Assembly (NCBI GenBank): GCA_002707495.1
Contig: PAMZ01000003.1
Location: 248,001-312,000, forward strand
DNA: 64,000 bases
Source of the DNA: Halobacteriovoraceae bacterium
GTDB lineage: Bacteria; Bdellovibrionota; Bacteriovoracia; Bacteriovoracales; Bacteriovoracaceae
Direction: 5' to 3'
How positions within the stretch are numbered: position 1 is the stretch's first letter; every line of letters starts with the position of its first letter. The position numbers and the translations under genes are program-made. Positions 529 to 15,590 of this stretch are shown piece by piece. Below the pieces are notes generated by a model that worked only from the letters and a program-made list of their open reading frames with translations, was not told the DNA's origin and searched no databases.

Positions 529-1791
529 TTAAATTTGAGTCGAGTGCAGTTTTTCTAAAAAACGAGGCCAGCTTGGAAAGTTCTTATAGAAGCTCGACTC
601 AATAAAATCATTCTTTCTTAACTGATAATCAAACTGCTCAAGAGGGAGCCAAATTCCAAATGCCTTAAATGAACCAAGATGATAATCCGGTTCATAAACA
701 TAAAAGTCACCATATCCATAACTCACTAGCATTCTATTCATACTATTTCGAAGCTCGTTAAGGTCTTCTAGGATATTACTCTCATCTCGCGCTTTTAAAA
801 ATTCCTCTAAAAAAGAAAGAACAGAACTTAAGTCACGACTTTCTCCTAAGAAGCTTTGACTCAATTGTAACTGCATCAAGATTTCGATCTTTAAGAATGG
901 ATCATTATCGAGAGCGTTATTGAGCTTTCTCAACACACGCTCAAACTCCGGAAGAAACATTAATTGCATTTCAACAGAGTTAATAGAACTCATCGTAAAC
1001 TTATCACTGTGAAGACCTGAAAAAGCATTAAGAGTCAATTCAGGTAGAGTCAGCGCTAGGTCATGGGCTGTAGATTCTGAATGCATCAATTTAATAATTT
1101 CCAAATAAGGAAGGCCTTTAAAGTTATGTATTTGAGTAGAGCCTACGATTAAGCTGGCTAAATCTTTGAGTTCATAACTTACTTCTAAGGTTTGCATTAA
1201 GCAGGCATCAAAAACTAGAAGGTCGACTTTTTGCTCGGCACTTTCTAAAACACTTCGTATTTCAGTGACTGATAGTTTTTGACTAGGAAAATCATCTAAG
1301 GCAACTCCTCCAAATTGTGCAAGTTTCCCTGCCCCAAATCCTTCACCATGTCCCCACAAGGATAAAAATAATTTCTTATCTTTTGAAAAAGAGTTGATCA
1401 ATGAAGAGAGGACCATTTCTTGAGGCACTTCTTCTAAAAAAGTTTCAATGATCTCAAATCTGAAGTCCGACAAATTTAGCTGCGAAGCCTCTTCAACAGT
1501 ACTTGGAAGAGGGACTTCTTTTGGTTTGATTTTTATTAACTGATAACCTTCATTGCCAGGTAAGTCGATAGCCACATGAATATTTGGTCGTTTCACCTTT
1601 CCTGTCTGAAATAACCCTAGAGAGACTTCAGCTAAATCCCACATAGCATAGTCCCTCAAATTATTATCAGCTTGCATGTAGATGGCCAGATTCCAGCCCT
1701 GGTTTTCTTGTAAGTTTTTAGCACCGCTAAACGCATTTAGGGAGCCGAAGCTCCCTAAGATTATAAGTATGTAGATAAAGTTAATTTTCAT
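529..1791 (-). CDS. secreted clostripain-family (C11) cysteine peptidase
   Basis: Predicted secreted cysteine endopeptidase of family C11. Residues 1-20 form a signal peptide. The domain starts with WNLAIYMQADNNLRDYA (the family's 'YMAADNNLE' block). The catalytic His is H148 in LSLWGHGEGFG and the catalytic Cys is C197 in LVFDACLMQ. C11 enzymes cut after basic residues and are often autoprocessed. At 420 residues the length suits a single-domain member. The start overlaps the end of the upstream transglutaminase-like gene by 11 bases, so the two are probably co-transcribed. In a predator this would fit a role in prey protein digestion, but that role is inference. Confidence 0.85.
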   Translation of the reverse strand: MKINFIYILIILGSFGSLNAFSGAKNLQENQGWNLAIYMQADNNLRDYAMWDLAEVSLGLFQTGKVKRPNIHVAIDLPGNEGYQLIKIKPKEVPLPSTVEEASQLNLSDFRFEIIETFLEEVPQEMVLSSLINSFSKDKKLFLSLWGHGEGFGAGKLAQFGGVALDDFPSQKLSVTEIRSVLESAEQKVDLLVFDACLMQTLEVSYELKDLASLIVGSTQIHNFKGLPYLEIIKLMHSESTAHDLALTLPELTLNAFSGLHSDKFTMSSINSVEMQLMFLPEFERVLRKLNNALDNDPFLKIEILMQLQLSQSFLGESRDLSSVLSFLEEFLKARDESNILEDLNELRNSMNRMLVSYGYGDFYVYEPDYHLGSFKAFGIWLPLEQFDYQLRKNDFIESSFYKNFPSWPRFLEKLHSTQI

Positions 1792-3343
1792 TAGCTGCTT
1801 GTAATAAAGCTTCCACTAATTTTCCAATAGGCTGCGCTCGCTGAGAAGAATGAGGTGCAAGCCTTGAAAGATTGTATTGACCTAAATTTTTCAGGTCAAT
1901 CGTTGCCGGTAGATAATTATCTACGCTTGAAGTTGCATGGGAGTTTTCAAATGGAGTCCAAAGAAAATCCGGATGCTTATTCTGATACCACTCTCCGCCG
2001 ATGATATTATAGTTTCTATCAAGTTCTAAGTCATAAGCGTAATAAGCGTAATTATGCGCGTCTTCTACAGGGCTATCACTTTTTAAAGTTGTTGGCATCG
2101 TTTCAACAAGGTACTCAACTTCCATTTTAACTCCAACTAAATAGCGAGCACTTCTTGATCTATACCGTCTAAACTTGTCATTTCTATGTTCACGTCTGCT
2201 AACAATAGCATCTTCGAGCGTATCGAATTCTTCCATTGTTATAGGATTAAAATAAACATAGGAATAAGCCGTAACAGGATGATTCCAAACTTCGTAGTCA
2301 AATGTTGCATCCATAACGAAAGTAGATTTCAGTTTTCCAACTTGATTGACGACAGTTTTATGCCAAGTCCCAGGATTATTATCAAAACATTTATCATCTA
2401 AAATTCTACCATTTGAGTCTTGAGCTGGATCTTTAGAATTACATCTCCCCCCTATAAATTTCGTTCTTTGAAACCCAGTGGCCCAGAGTTGAGACCCAAG
2501 AGCTTTTAGATCACTAGGCTTAAATTCGATTTGAGTGACCCCATCAGCAGCAGTAACTTCAATCGTTTTTACTGGTCTTGGTAGCATATAACTTGCTGGT
2601 GACCATCCATGACAGATACCCATCCATGTCTCTACTTTTCCATACTTTTCTTGATATCCAGCACCTGCATTGAACATAGACTTTGTGAAAGTAAAATTAT
2701 CGTCACCTACTAAGATATCATATTTTTCTGCGGGAGAGAGGTAGTTCACATCTAACATGAGAGCTGGATTATCTTCATGCCATTGCTTCAACCAAGGCCA
2801 AGCAGTTTCTGCGGAAATATCTGCATTCTCATAAGCTTCCATCATGACTTCATCTTGGTAACGATAAGAAAGTTGTCCCACAGCAATTGGCCAATACCAG
2901 TCAGACCAGGGTTTAATTTCGGACTCACCATTCTCTAAACCTAGTCTGGCCATTTCTCTAATATTAGATTCAACCACACCACCTGTGACTAAATTCTCAG
3001 CTCTATCAACAGATGAAATAGGTGCTCGCCCCTCAATGACATCCTCACCAGCATCTAAAGTTTCCAAGCAAACTTTAGTCATTGTGATCGGATCAGTATG
3101 ACAAATGTTTTTTCTGTATTCGTCTTTTATTCGAATATACTCCTGATTATCAACCACACCTCTTTCGAAATACCTGAAGATATTGTCCTCACAATTTGCA
3201 TCTTTTTTAGGAATGGGTGCATTCAAAAATTTTGATGGATTGGTTTTAAATTCCTCGAGATTTAAATCAACATTACATTTCATTGCATAAGTTGAAGAAG
3301 TGATAAATCCGAGCCCAAAAACGAGAAGAGTTTTGTTGATCAT
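1781..3343 (-). CDS. secreted transglutaminase-elicitor-like protein
   Basis: A 520-residue exported protein with signal peptide (1-20). The block WMGICHGWSPAS, with C244 as probable nucleophile, followed by a THDIKAL-like segment (FKPSDLKALGSQL), TWHKTVVNQVG (H328) and FVMDATFDYEVWNHPV (D345), resembles the transglutaminase elicitor family first known from Phytophthora GP42 and also found in marine and predatory bacteria. The Cys-His-Asp order fits a transglutaminase-type triad that crosslinks Gln and Lys side chains. It is the first gene of a pair with the C11 peptidase. Family assignment is from motif memory and is moderately certain; the natural substrate is unknown. Confidence 0.6.
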   Translation of the reverse strand: MINKTLLVFGLGFITSSTYAMKCNVDLNLEEFKTNPSKFLNAPIPKKDANCEDNIFRYFERGVVDNQEYIRIKDEYRKNICHTDPITMTKVCLETLDAGEDVIEGRAPISSVDRAENLVTGGVVESNIREMARLGLENGESEIKPWSDWYWPIAVGQLSYRYQDEVMMEAYENADISAETAWPWLKQWHEDNPALMLDVNYLSPAEKYDILVGDDNFTFTKSMFNAGAGYQEKYGKVETWMGICHGWSPASYMLPRPVKTIEVTAADGVTQIEFKPSDLKALGSQLWATGFQRTKFIGGRCNSKDPAQDSNGRILDDKCFDNNPGTWHKTVVNQVGKLKSTFVMDATFDYEVWNHPVTAYSYVYFNPITMEEFDTLEDAIVSRREHRNDKFRRYRSRSARYLVGVKMEVEYLVETMPTTLKSDSPVEDAHNYAYYAYDLELDRNYNIIGGEWYQNKHPDFLWTPFENSHATSSVDNYLPATIDLKNLGQYNLSRLAPHSSQRAQPIGKLVEALLQAANEN

Positions 3344-3505: not shown

Positions 3506-4657
3506 TCAACTTTCGTCCCCAACTTCTACAAAATGTCTTCCTAGGGATCTTTCAAAATTGTTGAAATCCAAGTCTCTTTTAAAAGCTTCCATGGTACTGT
3601 TATAGTCTTTTTCAAAAAATCGTCTGTAACGATTTGTTTCAATTTTAAATACTCCTTTGACTTTTATAGAGTTAGCATATCTTAAATAGACTATTACAAT
3701 AATCTCTAAATAACCTAATTCCTCAAATTTTTTGAGAGACCTATGAGTTAAAGTATTGAAAGCTGCCAGGACTTTTAAAATTCGCGGGTCGTCTTTTACT
3801 GCTTGAAAACCCGAATTATCGTTAAAAAAGAAAACGTCCAAATTATGAAAATAATCTTTGTAGGCAACTAGCGTTGTTTCATCCTCTCTAATGAGAGCAT
3901 CTCCAGAACCCTTATTTGGAAAAATGAGGGAAAGACACTCTTCTTTTAAGGAAGTAAGACATAAATCAATATTTCTCAAGTCTGAAACTTCATCGATAGG
4001 CTCTCCAGGTTGATAATTTTCGGAGGACTTAAAAGGCGAGGTATTATTAGTATTTTTCGATTTTGTATCAGTATCTGATCGATATTTTTTTGCTTTCTCT
4101 TGTTTCGTAGAGACAGTATTTTTCATTCTTCCAGGCTCAGATTCAAAAACTTTCGCATAAAAATTGTAGCCACCTATTGCTAATAACATAATAATCAAAA
4201 CGTAGGAAAAATATTGTCTCTTATCTTTCTTTTGAATTTTCTCCTTTTTCATACCTTTAGATTTAGGCTCTCGAGATAGGTCTTTTATATTTAAATTTGT
4301 TGTTTCCTGAAAAAAATCATTACTTAATTTATTTTGAGTTTGAGACGGTGGAGAGAGATTTGATTTTGATTCAATTTTTAAACTTATTCGATCACCCAGC
4401 TCAATCTCTGAAAAATCAAACACTCGAATTTTTTGATTTTTTGGTATTTTCTCCTGATTCAATGCAACCCAATTGGATAAACTTACATCTTCGATGAAAT
4501 ACTCTCCCCCAGAGATATAGATTTTCAGATGACTTCGAGAAATCGAAGAATCTCCTATGACAACATCATTTTGCTTAGATCGGCCAACAGAGACTTGGCT
4601 TTTCTTAAGTTCTACCTCTTTTAGAAGAGAGGATTCTTTTAAGACTTTTATAATCAC
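3506..4657 (-). CDS. FHA-domain membrane protein
   Basis: Residues 1-95 form a forkhead-associated domain: VSVGRSKQNDVVIGDSSISRSHLKI carries the conserved GR, S and H residues that bind phosphothreonine. A basic linker (KGMKKEKIQKKDKRQ) precedes a single membrane helix (YVLIIMLLAIGGYNFYA, about residue 150-170). A Lys/Ser/Thr-rich linker and an unrecognised C-terminal domain of about 160 residues follow. The FHA part therefore lies in the cytoplasm and the C-terminal part outside. The start codon overlaps the stop of the prepilin gene (ATGA, 4654-4657), so translation is coupled. It probably links phospho-signalling to the surface protein encoded upstream, but this is inference from context. 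Confidence 0.8.
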   Translation of the reverse strand: MIIKVLKESSLLKEVELKKSQVSVGRSKQNDVVIGDSSISRSHLKIYISGGEYFIEDVSLSNWVALNQEKIPKNQKIRVFDFSEIELGDRISLKIESKSNLSPPSQTQNKLSNDFFQETTNLNIKDLSREPKSKGMKKEKIQKKDKRQYFSYVLIIMLLAIGGYNFYAKVFESEPGRMKNTVSTKQEKAKKYRSDTDTKSKNTNNTSPFKSSENYQPGEPIDEVSDLRNIDLCLTSLKEECLSLIFPNKGSGDALIREDETTLVAYKDYFHNLDVFFFNDNSGFQAVKDDPRILKVLAAFNTLTHRSLKKFEELGYLEIIVIVYLRYANSIKVKGVFKIETNRYRRFFEKDYNSTMEAFKRDLDFNNFERSLGRHFVEVGDES

Positions 4658-5691
4658 TTTTTTTGATCAATTTTCTTTTGAAGATTTTCTATTTTTATAT
4701 TTTGCTCGTCTATCATCTCTTGCTGCTTTTTTATTGCTTCAACTAATACAGGAATCAGCATCGTATATCGAACTCCTTTTTCACCATTTTTTTGTTGAAA
4801 CACAACTTCAGGGTAAGTTTTCTCTACCTCCTGAGCGATTAGTCCTATTTGCTTACTCTGCTCATACCTTTTATCTTTAAGAAAATAATTATAACCATTA
4901 ATACCAGATAGCTTTCTCATAGGGTCAGAGATTCTTTTTATATCGCGTTTAATATTCTGATCCGACTCAATAATCACATGCTCACCTACAATAAGATTCT
5001 GTCCTATCTTTACGTCGAAATCATATTGAATCCCCTCTAAGGGATTGAAGCCAACTCCATCCGCTAATCTCCAAAAACCAATTCTACTTGTTGTATCAGA
5101 AACGCAAAAGTTTACAGTCGTGGGCGCTGCTGGATCTATGTTACAATTTAAATCTAATCCAATAACCAGATTTCTAGCTCCAAAGGATCTTCGACTAGCT
5201 GTATCAACATATTCACCTCGATTCACACTCATTTGCAATCGACATATCCCAGAGTCAGTTCCATTAATGCTCGTTACAATATTGGTCATAGGCAGGATAT
5301 CAATTTTATCTACTTTCCAGCTAGGAAATTTTTGGATTGTAGTAGTACCATCTGCCACAAAAGAAAGCACATTTGCTGCATCAAACTCATATTCTTGAGT
5401 GGCAGGATTCCACTCTGAAAACTGAACAAGGTCAAGCTGAGCAATATCTAGAGCACCTCCAGCAACTGTATATCCAGCCTGCTCCAAAGTTAAAGCACAA
5501 TTTCCAGCTTTCCCGAGAGTCATTTTGAGATAATTTCTCATGTCCATAAGCTCTGAGTCTGTTTCAACTTTATTGGTACCCTTCATCATTGTTTGACTAA
5601 GCTGTAAAACGACAAGTCCAATACCAACTGCAATTGAACCCGCAATGATAACCTCTAGTAAGCTCATTCCAGATTCATTATGCTTTTTCAT
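4654..5691 (-). CDS. prepilin-like protein with C-terminal S74 chaperone domain
   Basis: The N-terminus MKKHNESG/MSLLEVIIAGS is a type IV prepilin leader: cleavage after G8, Glu at +5 (E13) and a hydrophobic helix to about residue 35. The middle is an unrecognised beta-rich region. The last about 110 residues (ESDQNIKRDIKRI ... GLIAQEVEKTYPEVV ... VRYTMLIPVLVEAIKKQQ) match the peptidase S74 intramolecular chaperone of endosialidases and phage tail spikes, which trimerises its passenger and cuts itself off before the Ser of the SD motif. A coiled coil ends the protein. The pairing of a pilin anchor with a tailspike chaperone is unusual. It sits between a G2-like gene (2-base gap) and the FHA gene (4-base overlap). 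Confidence 0.85.
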   Translation of the reverse strand: MKKHNESGMSLLEVIIAGSIAVGIGLVVLQLSQTMMKGTNKVETDSELMDMRNYLKMTLGKAGNCALTLEQAGYTVAGGALDIAQLDLVQFSEWNPATQEYEFDAANVLSFVADGTTTIQKFPSWKVDKIDILPMTNIVTSINGTDSGICRLQMSVNRGEYVDTASRRSFGARNLVIGLDLNCNIDPAAPTTVNFCVSDTTSRIGFWRLADGVGFNPLEGIQYDFDVKIGQNLIVGEHVIIESDQNIKRDIKRISDPMRKLSGINGYNYFLKDKRYEQSKQIGLIAQEVEKTYPEVVFQQKNGEKGVRYTMLIPVLVEAIKKQQEMIDEQNIKIENLQKKIDQKK

Positions 5692-5693
5692 GA

Positions 5694-6323
5694 CTATTTA
5701 ACCTGAACCCAGTGGCGACCATCAACTTTAATCTGGTGTGAAGCTGTTCCAAAAGTTTCTCGTATCTCTGGTTTTTTATAAACTGCAATAAGACGTTCCG
5801 GAAAATTTTGTTTTTCCTCTATTGTCATTTGAGTTAAGTTTCCATTTTCATCGTTAGTAAGCGCGACTCCACATTCATACTCTTTATCCACATGAGCCAA
5901 GACCCATCCTGCTACAGCAATAGGAATTTGATTTTCTTCTGGTACCTGCCCTACAATATGGGCAAATGTATCTGAAGCAATACCCATAACGCCCATTTGA
6001 CATCGACTTGTGCACAAACGCGCACCCTCTACCGTATCATAATAAGCCTTTCCAGCCGTATATTTATCCTCTCCTAAAAACTGAAAATCAGCATAATCAT
6101 TCCAAACACTATTCCAAACCTTTTCAGCCATCATATGACCAAAGGGAGCAGCTGGAGCCGTCGTAAGATTATTAGTGTTTGTTACTACTAGTCCGTAGAC
6201 GAGTCCAGAACCTGCCGGACTTGTAGTATCAGGGTCCCAAGACGCAATATCCCCAATATTTGCTCCGGCATCATGTATTGCTGCTACCCTCAATAATGGG
6301 GCATAAAGTTTTGGTGTCGCCAT
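5694..6323 (-). CDS. peptidase G2 / phage appendage-like protein (tentative)
   Basis: A 209-residue protein with no signal peptide and no membrane helix. The middle and end (FLGEDKYTAGKAYYD, GIASDTFAHIVG, IPIAVAGWVLAHV, CGVALTNDENG, ERLIAVYK) recall the peptidase G2 autoproteolytic domain of phage-type proteins, in which GedR, 'GIVS' and 'VALAGRV' blocks occur in this order. The match is by eye and weak. The start at 6323 follows AGGAGG about 9 bases away. It is the first gene of the operon with the prepilin-S74 and FHA genes. If right, two different self-cleaving chaperone families sit side by side. It could equally be an unrelated surface-fibre subunit. Confidence 0.4.
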   Translation of the reverse strand: MATPKLYAPLLRVAAIHDAGANIGDIASWDPDTTSPAGSGLVYGLVVTNTNNLTTAPAAPFGHMMAEKVWNSVWNDYADFQFLGEDKYTAGKAYYDTVEGARLCTSRCQMGVMGIASDTFAHIVGQVPEENQIPIAVAGWVLAHVDKEYECGVALTNDENGNLTQMTIEEKQNFPERLIAVYKKPEIRETFGTASHQIKVDGRHWVQVK

Positions 6324-6429: not shown

Positions 6430-6732
6430 ATGAATCGTAGGAGCTTTGTTACAAAAATCAGTTTTCTGATGGGAATGCTTTTTTCAAGTAATCTTAGCGA
6501 TTCTCCCCCCTTTTCCGACAGTGAAAAATACGAGGTGATAAACCTTAATACAAACCCCGACTTATATGCTATTGAAAAGATAACCTTAACAACAGACCAT
6601 CAATTTCCAGTGGCTCTAAACGCTGGTAGTGAACCTATAAATTCATCTGACACAGTCTACCTCCTCCACAAACCAGGCACTTATCAATTGCAATATTTAG
6701 GTGCTTGTTATGGTTGGCTATGTCAGGGTTAA
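6430..6732 (+). CDS. small exported protein with Tat-like leader and two-Cys tail, unrecognised
   Basis: A 100-residue protein of unknown family. The N-terminus NRRSFVTKISFLMGMLFSS has the twin-Arg, Phe and Lys arrangement of a Tat signal. It ends with GACYGWLCQG, the only two cysteines, at the extreme C-terminus. The start ATG at 6430 has GGGGA directly against it, so the ribosome binding site is poor and initiation may be leaderless or lie elsewhere. It is the first gene before the precursor-maturase genes on the same strand (46-base gap). A second substrate of the radical SAM enzymes is one possibility, on position alone. Confidence 0.55.
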   Translation: MNRRSFVTKISFLMGMLFSSNLSDSPPFSDSEKYEVINLNTNPDLYAIEKITLTTDHQFPVALNAGSEPINSSDTVYLLHKPGTYQLQYLGACYGWLCQG

Positions 6733-6778: not shown

Positions 6779-7849
6779 ATGATACACCGTGATTTAATTT
6801 TTTACATTAAAACAACCGAAACTTGTCAGCTTAATTGCGATCACTGTTTTACTAACGGTTCAAATGGGCAAAAGGGTTTTTTTGATGAAAATAGAGTCAT
6901 CGACTTTATGCACAAACTCAAAAATAAAGTGCCACAAATAAATAGTGGAAGCGTGACTTTCCATGGGGGAGAGCCAATGCTTTGTCCTCCAGAAAAAATG
7001 ATAGATCTTTGGCAAGCATGTCGAGATCTATGGCCAAGCCTTTTTTGGTCCATACAAACCAATCTCACATATAAAATAGACCCCATCAAGCTAACATTTT
7101 TTGAGAAAGTGTGTCAGAAAACTTGGGGTACATCTTGGGATTACGATCTCAGGTGGAAGTCTAAACGCTCTAGCGATCTGTGGCGATCCAATATAAAAGA
7201 ACTTGCGCAAGACGGGCACAACATCACAGTTATCGTCTCCTTAAGCAAGAAACTTTTGCAAGAAAAAGAACCCATTGAAGTTATTGAAGATCTAGCTGAG
7301 CTCGGAGTTAAACACGTTAACTTTGAAAGAATCACTTCAAATGGAAATGCTATTGCCAACAAGCGAGTATTTCCAAGTAATAAAGACTTGGATCATTGGT
7401 TTGATAAAATGTGGCGCCAAAGCGTAAATCAGAAAACATATCAATATATAGACAATTTATTTTTTGATTCGATACTTACCTCGGCAGTTTTTAACACATT
7501 CAGTGGCTGTCGGTGTAGGCAATGTGAACAGAAAGTTTTCACAATAAACGCAGATGGTTCCATTGGAGGTTGCCCAAATACTGCTGCTGAATCTCCCTTC
7601 GCCCACATCAATGAAAATATAGATGATATTCTTTTTAACCCTGGTAGACTTTGCAATATCGAAAAAGAGTCGCGGCGCAATCAAGCTTGTTATACTTGTG
7701 AGGTCTATGATATTTGTAATGGTGATTGTCATCAACTAGCATGGGAGAATGGGGTATGTGCTGCTCCAAAAACTCTCATGAGTGCTGTTAAAAAAAGTGA
7801 CAAAGAATTACTAAATAGTTTCCTCAACGGTTTTCAAGGTCAGGAGTAA
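6779..7849 (+). CDS. radical SAM/SPASM peptide maturase (copy 1)
   Basis: A 356-residue radical SAM enzyme. C16, C20 and C23 (TETCQLNCDHCF) form the CX3CX2C site for the SAM-binding 4Fe-4S cluster, and FHGGEPM is the GGE motif. The C-terminal SPASM region has the cysteines of CRCRQC, GGCPN, CYTCEVYDICNGDC and VCAAPK, which hold auxiliary clusters, as in peptide-modifying maturases. It lies 2 bases upstream of the precursor-like gene, whose SD (AGGAG) is within its last codons. It is a clear paralogue of the enzyme at 12366-13451 (shared KTTETC.LNC.HCFT, INADGSI.GCPNTA). Likely substrate: the adjacent Cys-His-Ser-tailed protein (inference). Confidence 0.9.
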   Translation: MIHRDLIFYIKTTETCQLNCDHCFTNGSNGQKGFFDENRVIDFMHKLKNKVPQINSGSVTFHGGEPMLCPPEKMIDLWQACRDLWPSLFWSIQTNLTYKIDPIKLTFFEKVCQKTWGTSWDYDLRWKSKRSSDLWRSNIKELAQDGHNITVIVSLSKKLLQEKEPIEVIEDLAELGVKHVNFERITSNGNAIANKRVFPSNKDLDHWFDKMWRQSVNQKTYQYIDNLFFDSILTSAVFNTFSGCRCRQCEQKVFTINADGSIGGCPNTAAESPFAHINENIDDILFNPGRLCNIEKESRRNQACYTCEVYDICNGDCHQLAWENGVCAAPKTLMSAVKKSDKELLNSFLNGFQGQE

Positions 7850-7851
7850 TA

Positions 7852-8442
7852 ATGACAACTGGAGAAAAAACAGATAAAAACCCAAAAATTGGAAAATTCA
7901 TCAATGATGTTATAACCGACTCCATCAACGCAGTACAAAGAGATAGTTCAAACTTACCGACTGGCACACTACCTAGTCCAGTTGTCTCAAAAAACTCATT
8001 AGGTGTGGCCCCAAACCAATTTAGTTCTATAGGTACCAATAGCACGGTACCAACTCGAGGAGGCCAACTAACCGCTTCAGCTTTGTCTGATTTATTTTTC
8101 GTCTATGCTCACAATCTTACATCTATAAGGCGGGCAACGGTGACTAGACTCAGCACAAACGATGGTACCCCAAGTTCATCCACTCTTTGGTCGAATCAAA
8201 TAACCTCACTATCATCTGATTATAAAATGGCTACCGGAACATTTAGAACTCAAGTTAACGCTCAAGGAGACCCCTTAAGTGGTTTACAACCAGGTAGTAT
8301 TGCCTCAAACACAGCGATCGATACCCTCATTGCTGCTTTACAAACTGTCCTACAAAATAATCGTACTTCAGCTTCGGTATCTATAACTGTTTGCCATTCT
8401 TCATGTCATAGTTCATGTCATGGTTCTAGAGGGAGGCGTTAG
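7852..8442 (+). CDS. RiPP precursor-like protein with Cys-His-x-Ser repeat tail
   Basis: A 196-residue protein with no signal peptide. Residues 1-180 are a Ser/Thr/Asn-rich, Cys-free leader-like domain. The last 16 residues are CHSSCHSSCHGSRGRR (181-196): three 4-residue repeats with C181, C185 and C189, the only cysteines, each followed by His and a Ser two positions on. A short, abruptly different Cys/His/Ser/Arg tail on a long leader beside a SPASM maturase is the hallmark of a RiPP precursor. The His-x-Ser spacing recalls the His-Xaa-Ser (HxsA) peptides, but the partners are not obvious HxsB/HxsC. SD AGGAG is 5 bases before the ATG. The modification itself cannot be read from the sequence. 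Confidence 0.8.
   Translation: MTTGEKTDKNPKIGKFINDVITDSINAVQRDSSNLPTGTLPSPVVSKNSLGVAPNQFSSIGTNSTVPTRGGQLTASALSDLFFVYAHNLTSIRRATVTRLSTNDGTPSSSTLWSNQITSLSSDYKMATGTFRTQVNAQGDPLSGLQPGSIASNTAIDTLIAALQTVLQNNRTSASVSITVCHSSCHSSCHGSRGRR
8392..8427 (+). repeat. three 12-base coding repeats for Cys-His-(Ser/Gly)-Ser
   Basis: Three consecutive 12-base units encode CHSS, CHSS and CHGS in the precursor-like gene. The second and third begin TCATGTCAT in a shifted register and are nearly identical as DNA, which suggests recent duplication of the unit. Confidence 0.85.
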
Positions 8443-8444
8443 AT

Positions 8445-9182
8445 ATGGAAAACCAAAACAATATTCGAGAGGTGACTGCCCCCTTAGAACTAGAGCAAAT
8501 TAAAGAGTATTTTGCAGATAAAAGTATCGTTTTTTTAGTGGATTACCAGAAATCGGAGTTAAAGGGGCCAACTTTTTTGACTTATCTCTCAAACTTAGAT
8601 TTACCTGCTGAAATCAAAATGCAAGATTCTGATTATCAGCAAAAAGAAGAAATACTTCTTTGCTATATGACGACAAGAAGTGTCTATCGTACCGAATGCC
8701 TTCTCTACAATATTATGTATCTACTCCTAAAAATGCGTGGGACTGATACAACAAATATAATTCTAAATCCGATCTTTTCGTCAAAAGAAGCCGAACAGTT
8801 TATTAAAAACCATAGAGACTTACTGGAGACTTGGGAACTTTTCATAGAAAGTACGACCCTATATGCTCAAACTTGTGTAGAAGATTTAATGGACTCAGAA
8901 ACTATAAAAAATAACTTTGAGGAAGTTCAAGACCAAGAGGCGATTGGGTCCAATGTAGTCAACCTTTTTGGACTACCGGCGTTTATGGAGCTCTTCTTTT
9001 CGACTCCTTTAAAACATACTCCAAAATATTTCACCTGTCAGTTTGAGGATTATATGTTTAGGGGAAAAAACCTCTATAGCTATTACGCAGTTGAAGAGAA
9101 TCGTGTTTTCAAAATGTTTCTTGCACATATAGAGGGTATGATTGATGTCAAGGCAATCGCTCGGGAAGTTGAGAAATTATAG
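8445..9182 (+). CDS. unrecognised cytoplasmic protein coupled to the precursor gene
   Basis: A 245-residue protein with no signal peptide, membrane helix or motif I can assign. It is acidic, with several cysteines (LLCYMTTRS, TECLLYN, QTCVEDL, FTCQFEDY) not arranged as a cluster motif. The start follows the precursor stop by 2 bases with GGGAGG about 9 bases upstream, so it is translated with the precursor and maturase. Its 3' end overlaps the convergent glycosyltransferase-HipA gene by 35 bases. A leader-binding or maturation partner is the natural guess from position; nothing in the residues proves it. Confidence 0.7.
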   Translation: MENQNNIREVTAPLELEQIKEYFADKSIVFLVDYQKSELKGPTFLTYLSNLDLPAEIKMQDSDYQQKEEILLCYMTTRSVYRTECLLYNIMYLLLKMRGTDTTNIILNPIFSSKEAEQFIKNHRDLLETWELFIESTTLYAQTCVEDLMDSETIKNNFEEVQDQEAIGSNVVNLFGLPAFMELFFSTPLKHTPKYFTCQFEDYMFRGKNLYSYYAVEENRVFKMFLAHIEGMIDVKAIAREVEKL

Positions 9183-10854: not shown

Positions 10855-11403
10855 TTGAGTATCCCGAACTTTACTGACTTTTTTACACAAGGCTTTATTT
10901 TTTTTGAAGATTTTTCTAGCATTGATATTGATGCTGCCTATCAACTTCACTATCCTAACTCTGAAGATAATGAGCTTTACACTATCCCAGAAGAAGCTAG
11001 AGTACTACTTCAAAGAATTCAACAAGAGTTTGCCCAAAGATACATTGTGATGATTTTCAATCAATTCAAAATCAAAGAAATTGGAATATGGGATGGAGCA
11101 GACTCTGGCTCTATTAAATGGCACAATGACAATAACCCCATTAACGGGATGAATGCCAACTTACTAATTTATCTCGATGATTGCAATCCTGAAACGGGCG
11201 GAAAAATAGAGGTCCGATCTGATCATAGCTATAAATTTATTTACCCTCGCAGGGGACAAGCCATTTTTCTCAACCAGTCACCACAATTCCAACATAAAGT
11301 GACTCGTTCCAGTAAAACGCGAAGGGTTATAAGTCTAGAATACTTTATCGACGATTTGGTGAGCGGATACCAACCAAAACAACGCACCGAAAAAGACCTG
11401 TAA
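10855..11403 (+). CDS. 2-oxoglutarate/Fe(II) oxygenase (copy 1)
   Basis: A 182-residue prolyl-hydroxylase-type oxygenase. Iron ligands are H90 and D92 in IKWHNDNNP and H147 in FQHKVTRS; R157 (KTRRVISL) would bind 2-oxoglutarate. The LLIYLDDCNPETGGKIEV block is typical of the fold. The start is TTG at 10855, supported by AGAAGG 9 bases upstream. It opens the second half of the cluster (10855-18071, all plus strand). Its likely role is hydroxylation of a peptide or amino acid side chain. It is a paralogue of the enzyme at 17282-17797. Family call is firm, substrate unknown. Confidence 0.8.
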   Translation: MSIPNFTDFFTQGFIFFEDFSSIDIDAAYQLHYPNSEDNELYTIPEEARVLLQRIQQEFAQRYIVMIFNQFKIKEIGIWDGADSGSIKWHNDNNPINGMNANLLIYLDDCNPETGGKIEVRSDHSYKFIYPRRGQAIFLNQSPQFQHKVTRSSKTRRVISLEYFIDDLVSGYQPKQRTEKDL

Positions 11404-11464: not shown

Positions 11465-12382
11465 ATGAATATCAGTCTTAATCCCACATATCTTTGTAAT
11501 CTAAGATGCCAATTCTGCTATTTGACTCCTGCACAGTTATCAGAAACTAGATATGCCTCTTTAAAAGAAATCAACCAACGATTAAAGGAAATTTCAGATT
11601 TTTCTCCTATTCAACATGTCGACATTTACGGTGGTGAGATCTCACTTCTCCCGGAGGAGTATCTAGAGGAATTATTGGTTATTCTCTCCTCTTACTGCAG
11701 ACCTCCTTACAATATTATCACTAACCTCACCAGAATTTCACCTTTATTTAAAGACGAACGGGTCCACTTGTCAGTCTCTTATGACTTTGAAGCTAGAAAA
11801 TTTAATGAATTAGTGTTTCAAAATATGTCTTTACTCAATAAAAATATTTCTGTCCTCATTCTTGCTTCTCCTCAGGTTATTGCAATGAATGTAGATTCGC
11901 TTATTGAAAAACTCAACCTTCTTTCTAATATTATTAGTGTTGAAATAAAGCCTTACTCAACAAATCAAAGTAATCAATTACCTATGAACTTCAAAGATTT
12001 TGAAGATTTTATCAAACAATGGCTTCAATCTAGAGTTCCCAAAAAATTTCTCTTTGTTAACGAAAAAAAAATTCAAGATTCACTTGCAAGGTCTTACAAT
12101 GCTTTTAGCGACGATCATATCTATATCACTCCTCAAGCGAAGTTAGGAGTTCTTGATTTTGATGCTACTGACAACGAGTATTTTAGAGAGCTAGAAAGCA
12201 TAGATGATTATCTTTTTTGGTCAAAAAAAGAAAAAGAGAAAATTTCTAAGAACGACTTTTGTAAATCGTGTAACTACAAAGGTCATTGTTTAACAGAGCA
12301 TTATCGTGATGTTAAAGGGCTCAAGTATTCATGTAATGGATATAAACATTTACTCGACTGGTATCATGAATCTTTCGTCTAA
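11465..12382 (+). CDS. radical SAM protein with short C-terminal Cys domain
   Basis: A 305-residue radical SAM protein: C11, C15, C18 (TYLCNLRCQFCY) bind the SAM cluster, and IYGGEIS is the GGE motif. The C-terminus has CKSCNYKGHC and SCNGY, a shortened SPASM/twitch-like cluster site. The core (about residues 90-200) is shorter than in the SPASM paralogues. There is no strong SD before 11465. The 3' end overlaps the next radical SAM gene by 17 bases. The product is not recognised beyond the superfamily; a peptide-modifying role follows from the neighbours. Confidence 0.85.
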   Translation: MNISLNPTYLCNLRCQFCYLTPAQLSETRYASLKEINQRLKEISDFSPIQHVDIYGGEISLLPEEYLEELLVILSSYCRPPYNIITNLTRISPLFKDERVHLSVSYDFEARKFNELVFQNMSLLNKNISVLILASPQVIAMNVDSLIEKLNLLSNIISVEIKPYSTNQSNQLPMNFKDFEDFIKQWLQSRVPKKFLFVNEKKIQDSLARSYNAFSDDHIYITPQAKLGVLDFDATDNEYFRELESIDDYLFWSKKEKEKISKNDFCKSCNYKGHCLTEHYRDVKGLKYSCNGYKHLLDWYHESFV

Positions 12383-13451
12383 TATTACCGTCTATTTAAA
12401 GACGACTGAAACATGCAACTTGAATTGCTCTCATTGTTTCACCTCTGGCTCTAAGGGAGCGAAAATAATTTTTTCTCCGCAGAAAACGATCCATTTTTTT
12501 GAGCGACTAAAAAATGCCTTTCCGCACATTGAATCTATTCGCTATCTTTTCCATGGAGGAGAGCCATTTTTAGCTCCACTGGATACTCTTTATCAAGCCT
12601 ACTTTGGTTTAAAAGATTTGTTTCCTAAAACTAGTTTTGGTATGCAAACGAACCTTGTTTACCCGTTAAGTAATGAGAAAAGAGCTTTCCTTAAAGAAGT
12701 CCTCTATAATTATGGATTCGGGACCTCATGGGACTATGACATCAGGTTTGGATCTTTACTCAATAAAGCAAAGGATTCGCAACAGGCGATTTGGGAAAAG
12801 AATGTCAGAACTCTGACCCAAGAAGACGACCACTATATGACAATGATCGTTTCTATAACTAAAGGTCTTATTGAAAATAAACAACCTATTGAGATTTTAA
12901 GATACGCTCATAAACTAGGGTTTAAACATATACTTTTCGAGAGAATTACAAGCGACGGAAATGCCATCGAAAACCATGAAATCATACCCTCGAATCGTAG
13001 CCAAGACGAATGGCTATACAAGATGTTTGAACAAACTATGAAATACAAAACTTATGAGTATATAGGAAACATGTTCATTTCGGAACTCGCTCAGGCTTAT
13101 GTCAATCGCTCCCATGTTGGTAACCGTTGTCGCAACTGTGAAGAAAGCCTACTAACAATAAACGCTGATGGCTCGATAGCGGGATGTCCTAATACTGCTC
13201 CTGTTGATCACTGGGGTCATATTGACTGGCCTCTTACAAAAAGTTTTCAATCAAGTAACCGCCTTAAAACAATTTCTTGTGAGAGGTATGATCGCAATCC
13301 TCTATGTTTTTCTTGTCCAGCATTTGAACTTTGTAATAGTGATTGCCACAAACTTAAGTGGGACGAAAATGAAAGTTACTGTGCAGCTCCTAAAAAAATT
13401 TGGTCTCATATGTTAAAAAATTCAGAAAACTACAGTGAGTTGATTATATGA
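12366..13451 (+). CDS. radical SAM/SPASM peptide maturase (copy 2)
   Basis: A 361-residue enzyme. C17, C21, C24 (TETCNLNCSHCF) and FHGGEPF mark the radical SAM core. The C-terminus has SPASM cysteines (CRNCEE, GCPN, CFSCPAFELCNSDC, YCAAPK). The ATG at 12366 is chosen because it aligns with the paralogue's start; an in-frame ATG at 12306 would add 20 non-homologous residues inside the upstream gene. It is clearly homologous to the maturase at 6779-7849, and no second CHSS-type precursor lies next to it, so it may share that substrate or act on one elsewhere. It ends in ATGA overlap with the next gene. Confidence 0.88.
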   Translation: MNLSSNITVYLKTTETCNLNCSHCFTSGSKGAKIIFSPQKTIHFFERLKNAFPHIESIRYLFHGGEPFLAPLDTLYQAYFGLKDLFPKTSFGMQTNLVYPLSNEKRAFLKEVLYNYGFGTSWDYDIRFGSLLNKAKDSQQAIWEKNVRTLTQEDDHYMTMIVSITKGLIENKQPIEILRYAHKLGFKHILFERITSDGNAIENHEIIPSNRSQDEWLYKMFEQTMKYKTYEYIGNMFISELAQAYVNRSHVGNRCRNCEESLLTINADGSIAGCPNTAPVDHWGHIDWPLTKSFQSSNRLKTISCERYDRNPLCFSCPAFELCNSDCHKLKWDENESYCAAPKKIWSHMLKNSENYSELII

Positions 13452-14554
13452 ATATCGACAATAGACCTATAGACCTGATTGTGAAACCTACTGAAGCTTG
13501 TAATTTCGCATGCAGTTTTTGCAGTTCTAGCTATTTAGTCGAAAATAAAAGATCAAAATTAGACCTTATTTATATCTTTGAGTTTTTAAAACGCTTTCCT
13601 AATACTCAGACTATTATAATCAACGGAGGGGATCCCTTGATGATGCCTGTGGGATACTACTGGCAATTAATAGAGCATCTCGAGCAGTACAATTATATAG
13701 CCGATATCTCAATAACCACTAACCTATGGAAGTTTTGGCAAGAATGGCAAAATGACAAAAAACCAAAATACTGGACTGAGCTTTTTAGACACAAAAGAGT
13801 CAACGTAACCACCTCGTTTCAATATGGAGAAGGAAGACGAATTTCAAAAAACGAAATTTTCACAGAAAAGCATTTTATAGCAGTTTCAAATCTGATGTTA
13901 GAAAAAGTAGGATACCGGCCGTCATTTATAAGCGTTATTGAAGAGCAGGATTTAGATTCCTGTATAAATAACGTTCGTCTAGCAAAAACACTAGGTGTGG
14001 ACTGCAAATTAAATTACGCCAATAAAAGTGGAGACTGTGACAAGCCTCTACCCTTATCATTTATTTATGAAGTTTATATTAAGATTTATGAAGAAGGCCT
14101 CGTCGATCATGAGTGGAATACTCGTCAAATGATTAATAGCATTCAACAATACCATTCGACTGCATGTCCACTTAACAGGAGTTGCGACAGTGGAATTAGA
14201 GTTCTTCAACCGGATGGAAGATATTTTAGTTGCGGGGCTTTCGGAGATGATCAAAGGTATGAGATTGATTTTCAGAAGGAAGTACATGAGGGTGACTTCT
14301 TTAAGCCTTTAGAGGATGACATCAACTTACAAGTCATTAAAAAGGATTGCTACACATGTGATATGTTTTCCATTTGTAACGGATGCAAAAAACATATCAG
14401 CGATCTTAAAGAATCTAATCTCACAGAGAGGCATTGCGCAAAAATGAAATCAATTGCACCTAAAATCATGAATATAGCTGATAATTCTCCACCAATTGAA
14501 ATCAGAAATGATACCTACTATCAAGGCTTAAATGTTAATGAAACTAACGGCTAG
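13448..14554 (+). CDS. radical SAM/SPASM protein
   Basis: A 368-residue radical SAM protein: C18, C22, C25 (TEACNFACSFCSSS) and INGGDP (GGD in place of GGE). SPASM-type cysteines lie in ACPLNRSC, YFSCGAFG and CYTCDMFSICNGCKKH. The start overlaps the previous stop (ATGA at 13448), so translation is coupled. It differs from the KTTETC pair and is not an obvious copy of any other gene here. The function is not recognised; it probably acts with the neighbouring maturases. Confidence 0.88.
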   Translation: MNIDNRPIDLIVKPTEACNFACSFCSSSYLVENKRSKLDLIYIFEFLKRFPNTQTIIINGGDPLMMPVGYYWQLIEHLEQYNYIADISITTNLWKFWQEWQNDKKPKYWTELFRHKRVNVTTSFQYGEGRRISKNEIFTEKHFIAVSNLMLEKVGYRPSFISVIEEQDLDSCINNVRLAKTLGVDCKLNYANKSGDCDKPLPLSFIYEVYIKIYEEGLVDHEWNTRQMINSIQQYHSTACPLNRSCDSGIRVLQPDGRYFSCGAFGDDQRYEIDFQKEVHEGDFFKPLEDDINLQVIKKDCYTCDMFSICNGCKKHISDLKESNLTERHCAKMKSIAPKIMNIADNSPPIEIRNDTYYQGLNVNETNG

Positions 14555-14588
14555 ACGATAGATTTTATTATTTCTAATATAGTGACTC

Positions 14589-15590
14589 ATGGATAACTAC
14601 GCACTGATTCAAAAAAAAATTGTCACTTATTCAGAAGTCGTTATTTGTCTTTTTGACAGCTGCAATTTGAATTGTGCCTTTTGCCCTCAAGATCACAATT
14701 CCACCTTATTTATGAACCGCAAAGATATCATGAATAAAACCTCGACTGTCATTCATTGGATAAATAATAAGTCATCGTCTTTCATTAAAATTCACCTGAT
14801 GGGAGGAGAACTATTTCAAGACGACCTTGTAGACAAACAATTCCTTCAGATTTACTCTGATTTTGTTGATGAAATTAAATCCAAAGTAAATCCTGAAAAA
14901 GAACTCTACTTTAACTTCATTACTAATTTAGTTTTTACCAGGCAAACAGAAGTCTATGATTTTCTAAAAAAACATCGGTTAGAGTTTTCTATTTCTTATG
15001 ATCCAGTTGGAAGGTTTACTCCTGCCGCTATGGTACAATTTCAAGAAAACCTTAAGTTCTTTCATAACAAAATAAGTATGGTCTCAATTGTTCTAAGCGC
15101 TCAAAATATAAAAAAAATACAACATGGCGATCCAGTCTTTGATAAATTATATGGTAGTTATCCTTGTGATTTTGACCAATTTCTACCTAGCGTTCATAAT
15201 TCAGATGCTTTCATACCCAGCGCAAGTCAAATTAGAGATTTTTATATTTTTTTAATTGAAGAGTATCCAGAATGCTTAACGATAGAACATTTCATAACCA
15301 AAGAGGGTGCAAAGAAAATGCGTTGCACTCGAGGAAATTCTTTAACAATACTAAATGATGGTTCCGTGCCTCAGGAGTGCTCCGGTTCTATTTTTCTCAA
15401 AGACGGGCAAAAAGAGCAACTCGATCAACCTAAAATTGTTTACGATTATATAGGTAAGCAAAACTGTCTTACCTGCGCCTACTATGAAAGATGCCCATTT
15501 CCTTGCTTTGTCGCATCCAGCTACCATGTCAAAAAGGACGATATAGGACGTTGTCTCTACAAGGAGGTTTTTGATTATACAGTCTCTTAA
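14589..15590 (+). CDS. radical SAM protein
   Basis: A 333-residue radical SAM protein with an N-terminal strand before the cluster site: C25, C29, C32 (DSCNLNCAFCPQDHN), and LMGGEL. C-terminal cysteines in MRCTRGN, PQECSG, CLTCAYYERCPFPC and GRC suggest an auxiliary-cluster domain. The SD before the ATG at 14589 is weak. The last codons contain AAGGAGG, which serves the next gene, and the two reading frames overlap by 20 bases. Function beyond the superfamily is not recognised. Confidence 0.85.
   Translation: MDNYALIQKKIVTYSEVVICLFDSCNLNCAFCPQDHNSTLFMNRKDIMNKTSTVIHWINNKSSSFIKIHLMGGELFQDDLVDKQFLQIYSDFVDEIKSKVNPEKELYFNFITNLVFTRQTEVYDFLKKHRLEFSISYDPVGRFTPAAMVQFQENLKFFHNKISMVSIVLSAQNIKKIQHGDPVFDKLYGSYPCDFDQFLPSVHNSDAFIPSASQIRDFYIFLIEEYPECLTIEHFITKEGAKKMRCTRGNSLTILNDGSVPQECSGSIFLKDGQKEQLDQPKIVYDYIGKQNCLTCAYYERCPFPCFVASSYHVKKDDIGRCLYKEVFDYTVS

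Follow-up and report, generated by a model that had tools for sequence, protein, structure and literature searches.

The window that we analysed, a stretch of 64,000 nucleotides from Halobacteriovoraceae bacterium, encodes a protein (here called A) in which a type IV prepilin N-terminus is joined to a C-terminal S74 domain with conserved catalytic residues and the S74 fold, and the gene for A lies in a conserved cluster with genes for two partner proteins (B and C) and for radical-SAM enzymes, as revealed by computation (Table 1). The preliminary description of this DNA had proposed such a fusion of a prepilin anchor with S74, and it was borne out by a class III leader in A and by a match of the Pfam S74 profile. 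It is somewhat probable in our view that A is a trimeric, modular minor pilin located at a filament tip, whose chaperone would trimerise A and then cut itself off.

Table 1. Features of the prepilin-S74 gene and its cluster in the window (positions from the first letter of the window).
Feature	Position	Strand	Remarks
Prepilin-S74 fusion protein A	4654..5691	-	345 aa, ATG start; exact ORF confirmed
Class III prepilin leader MKKHNESG	5668..5691	-	predicted prepilin-peptidase cut after G8; G8 invariant
S74 catalytic motif SDQNIK (S243, D244, K248)	4948..4965	-	Pfam S74 begins at residue 243
B	5694..6323	-	209 aa; 2 bp upstream of A, same strand
C	6430..6732	+	100 aa; N-terminal RR-hydrophobic signal; relatives adjoin A/B in other genomes
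Radical SAM/SPASM enzyme of the cluster	6779..7849	+	
Precursor-like protein	7852..8442	+	196 aa; C-terminus CHSSCHSSCHGSRGRR
Conserved cluster protein, unknown family	8445..9182	+	relatives in at least 8 other clusters
2OG-Fe(II) oxygenase	10855..11403	+	relative near A/B in L061
Four further radical-SAM genes (11465, 12309, 13448, 14589)	11465..15590	+	relatives in other clusters

From its sequence and its model, A can be divided into a leader (residues 1-8), a pilin helix (about 9-60), a beta-rich pilin-like region (about 74-200), a short linker or stalk (about 200-242), the S74 domain from residue 243 and a C-terminal helix (309-344). Its N-terminus, MKKHNESG^MSLLEVIIAGSIAVGIGLVVLQLSQ, has a hydrophilic leader, glycine at -1, glutamate at +5 and an uncharged hydrophobic helix. 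A shaft is nearly absent, with about 40 residues from the pilin domain to the predicted cleavage site, so that a displayed fibre would be short; in other prepilin-S74 members the stalk position is occupied by several hundred residues.

With regard to the pilin half, A alone scored 13.6 bits against the N_methyl profile PF07963 (E = 0.3), which is under the Pfam cut-off, and E = 0.004-0.007 against the prepilin models of NCBIfam. Among the aligned relatives, N_methyl was matched by 14 of 18 (best E = 6e-7) and S74 by all 18, and G8 was invariant across this alignment of prepilin-S74 proteins. Thus, when the profile search that had been suggested for a pilin-like N-terminus together with S74 was run, the S74 part stood, while the pilin part failed for A by itself and held for most of its relatives. 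Of 80 complete S74 genes in the fetched loci, 23 had the strict prepilin motif, compared with 7 of the 683 other genes; these are not unbiased rates, since part of the loci had been chosen through the neighbouring gene B and the set was thus enriched on purpose. Because of the difference between these counts, a chance occurrence of the motif on S74 genes is unlikely, and the seven genes without S74 look like real prepilins. A relaxed pattern was dropped because it caught unrelated proteins too (44 of the 683 non-S74 genes).

The first survey, in which relatives were picked by S74 only, gave 21 prepilin-S74 proteins in 11 genomes, counted by eye, and Glu5 was missing from eight of them in the same reading; since some paralogues (L001, L041 and L056) lack Glu5, their assembly may differ. 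At 1871-17998 of L041, six tandem prepilin-S74 genes (866-912 aa) are all without Glu5. The window's own genome encodes three S74 proteins, each of them a prepilin fusion, and it contains two prepilin-peptidase-family genes, six strong T2SSE-family ATPases and other prepilins; no type IV pilus locus adjoins the A gene. The AF2 model of A (mean pLDDT 61) contains a helix at residues 11-60 and four strands between 126 and 198, with residues 200-240 at low confidence. Its pilin region is also of low confidence (pLDDT about 55-65), and VIA-align listed no confident pilin match for residues 1-200, a result that is uninformative either way with so poor a model; this region also matched 9a1f, the Xcp pseudopilus, weakly (Z 4.1), but many folds of unrelated kinds reached a similar Z.

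The S74 half was recognised by PF13884 at residues 243-297 (E = 8e-13; 48.9 bits, with the cut-off at 22), and the concern raised in the preliminary description that a profile search might leave S74 unconfirmed was thereby removed. The whole-genome S74 scan matched A at the same place with 51.9 bits. Comparison with PHROG gave 38 families at E<=1, the best being tail fibres (E = 6e-22), and the sequence search of the PDB gave 6f45, a long tail fibre distal subunit (E = 3e-7). The serine of ESDQN, where self-cleavage had been suspected, is S243 in SDQNIK, that is, in the SDxxxK motif. S243, D244 and K248 were invariant in all 18 aligned prepilin-S74 proteins, and SDxxxK was present in every one of the 80 complete S74 genes examined in the fetched loci. 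The S74 domain of A was modelled at pLDDT of about 80-94, and VIA-align placed it on the ICA domain of MyRF (7dc3, Z 9.2, rmsd 3.8, 118 aligned), the K1F-type intramolecular chaperone 3gw6 (Z 7.5), 3gud (Z 6.0) and the T5 L-shaped tail fibre 4uw8 (Z 5.5). The S74 domain in A is a true one, and its predicted fold matches solved S74 structures. It was reported that Bd3182 of Bdellovibrio cleaves itself at its S74 serine and that this cleavage is lost in the S782A variant (PMC10769870). It is reasonable to expect that A trimerises and cleaves itself before S243, at the predicted site between E242 and S243, because the catalytic residues are invariant and S74 cleavage is known for Bd3182.

Among the 129 family genomes, 15 carried the gene for B, and the named carriers were mostly Bacteriovoracaceae and Bdellovibrionales metagenome-assembled genomes. 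A prepilin-S74 gene directly adjoins B in 12 of the 15 carriers; in G010 and G012 the two genes are about 18 kb apart within one cluster, and the G102 contig stops close to B. B had no match in Pfam, and sequence searches of the PHROGs gave nothing convincing for B or C (best E 0.0064 and 0.0051, respectively). In the one good AF2 model out of five, residues 76-209 or so of B fitted the C-terminal domain of phi29 gp12 (3gqh, Z 11.4, rmsd 2.8, 105 residues; 3suc, Z 10.9), and phage capsid decoration proteins matched nearly as well. The gp12 of phi29 is a trimeric phage protein. B resembles this pre-neck appendage in its predicted fold, but it is a separate protein and not the end of a spike, and the identity is 15%. 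We saw no signal peptide in B, which weakens the case for a shared assembly of A and B outside the cell. At L121, a C-like domain (likeness judged by eye) is located at the C-terminus of an ORF with a tail-fibre-like shaft; as the PHROG searches were unconvincing, it is only this ORF that could link C to phages.

Relatives of the window's radical-SAM genes were located near B in 13 of the 15 B-carrying genomes. The relatives of the precursor-like protein in other clusters keep a C-terminus of the CH..CH..SRGRR type, and the protein itself matched nothing in Pfam or NCBIfam; no paper was found on 'SRGRR' with radical SAM. Three His-Xaa-Ser-like triplets are present at its C-terminus. The scores of the radical-SAM proteins against HxsB and HxsC were far below the curated cut-offs, and the His-Xaa-Ser resemblance of the precursor serves us as a lead only.

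Among the known systems that are close to A are the mosaic adhesive trimers (MAT) of Bdellovibrio, by which prey is recognised (PMC10769870). The S74 group of MAT fibres, including Bd3182, shares with A the C-terminal S74 with SDxxxK, comes from a related lineage that includes predators, and probably corresponds to A in being a trimeric surface fibre. On the other hand, a signal peptide and a conserved beta domain of about 130 aa are typical of MATs (PMC10769870), whereas the N-terminus of A is that of a prepilin and its shaft is nearly lacking. By the N-terminal features of MAT (a signal peptide plus a beta-rich N-domain of about 130 aa) A is not a member, as a prepilin leader is found there instead, and A did not match a profile of eight MAT-like N-domains. 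Locus L125 of a Bdellovibrionaceae genome (ACE_BDE5) keeps the gene order of S74 gene, C, B and radical-SAM genes, and its S74 protein carries a Sec-like signal together with an N-terminal domain for which this genome has 12 occurrences, in line with what the MAT paper describes for its proteins (PMC10769870). This domain matched the profile of similar domains modestly (E = 8e-7, one-sequence search), and from the copy number, the position and this match we infer that it is a MAT domain. The anchor in front of S74 thus looks swappable between a prepilin and a signal peptide with a MAT-like N-domain, and, if the L125 domain is indeed MAT, the two N-termini would be alternative roots for related fibres. 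The MAT study did not settle how its fibres are anchored or whether they are connected with type IV pili (PMC10769870), and a prepilin in the structural slot of MAT provides a testable gene for a link between the fibres and type IV pili.

We propose that A would be inserted into the inner membrane in prepilin form, its C-terminus facing the periplasm, where the S74 domains of three chains would come together and shape the short stalk into a trimer. The S74 domain of every chain would then cut that chain in front of S243 and leave as a released chaperone, and the 8-residue leader would be taken off by prepilin peptidase. This trimer may be incorporated at the tip of a filament resembling a type IV pilus, in the manner of TcpB and CofB, and A may form a rooted fibre on the surface or an adhesin platform there, possibly for prey attachment. 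B, with its predicted fold like the C-terminal domain of gp12, and the small exported C are probably further parts of the assembly of A. The CH..SRGRR precursor is probably the substrate that the cluster's radical-SAM enzymes modify. The cluster would also connect a surface fibre with a radical-SAM pathway whose precursor family has no name, and the lineage concerned counts predatory bacteria among its members.

TcpB and CofB of the T4bP systems are homotrimeric modular minor pilins at the pilus tip, where they bind a secreted protein (PMC9565799), and this is the likeness that we propose for A; however, they are not described in that paper as ending in S74, and no self-removing chaperone appears there. 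The combination of pilin and S74 (IPR012902-IPR030392) was listed in the 2021 PNAS survey of modular pilins, among the most frequent architectures, with the S74 module called a predicted peptidase, and it was given as a database architecture with no functional study (PMC8179133). Literature searches that paired prepilin with S74 gave no hit, and the combination was located within this survey. A agrees with these catalogued modular pilins in domain order, with the pilin motif N-terminal and S74 C-terminal, and what our study adds to them is the chaperone role, the invariant catalytic residues, the conserved partner gene and the cluster. As far as our tools show, the group-wide conservation of the catalytic residues, the association with B, C and radical-SAM genes and the apparent swap of the anchor are new.

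The prepilin segment may instead be a mere anchor or assembly point in the inner membrane, pseudopilin-like, for type II or related secretion, with the S74 trimer and B acting in the periplasm or at the time of secretion and not on a pilus. The weak Xcp match, the lack of a visible signal peptide in B and a pseudopilin-like gene set with an ATPase at a second locus on C2 point in this direction, but the Bdellovibrionaceae version with its signal peptide and an N-domain like that of the surface MATs (PMC10769870) fits better with surface display, and we regard such a secretion role as unlikely. We are similarly doubtful that the cluster serves mainly to make a peptide modified by the radical-SAM enzymes, with prepilin-S74 and B as its carrier or as a scaffold for delivery and not as an adhesin. 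The precursor-like proteins with a conserved C-terminus, the several radical-SAM/SPASM genes with 2OG oxygenases and the recurrence of radical-SAM relatives near B in 13 of 15 genomes are in favour of it, though prepilin-S74 paralogues of the same and of other genomes (L001, L002 and L035) lie outside any such cluster, and this type of protein therefore does not require one.

The weak pilin signature of A by itself might also suggest a degenerate or chance join of a pilin remnant with a phage-derived S74 relic that has no function. This is very improbable, and we rejected it on account of conservation: the frame is open, the catalytic residues and G8 are invariant, and many genomes carry the A type with the same partner. 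A wider reading, which we entertain only tentatively, is that prepilin-S74, gp12-like B and C would form a pilus-tip complex of phage-fibre-like parts that carries or delivers the radical-SAM-modified peptide, with an exchangeable anchor that would be a prepilin in Bacteriovoracaceae and a MAT N-domain in Bdellovibrionaceae.

Some other S74 genes and neighbours were also observed. G043, a genome of another family, has 14 S74 proteins, most of them of about 230-410 aa and many with an FTAGSPISAS-like motif (loci L075, L083, L085, L051, L052, L054, L059 and L065). Short S74 proteins of 145-169 aa with no visible signal peptide are encoded at L042, L043, L050, L055, L058, L063 and L086, where their genes adjoin radical-SAM-like, short PqqD-like and ABC-transporter-like genes, named from reading of the sequences and not from profiles. 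In the window, a gene for an FHA-domain protein (3506-4657) shares its first 4 bp with the end of A; such an FHA-like neighbour is absent from most clusters and is also found near L057. Moreover, adjoining genes for a clostripain-family peptidase (PF03415) and a transglutaminase elicitor (PF16683) occupy positions 529-3343 of the window.
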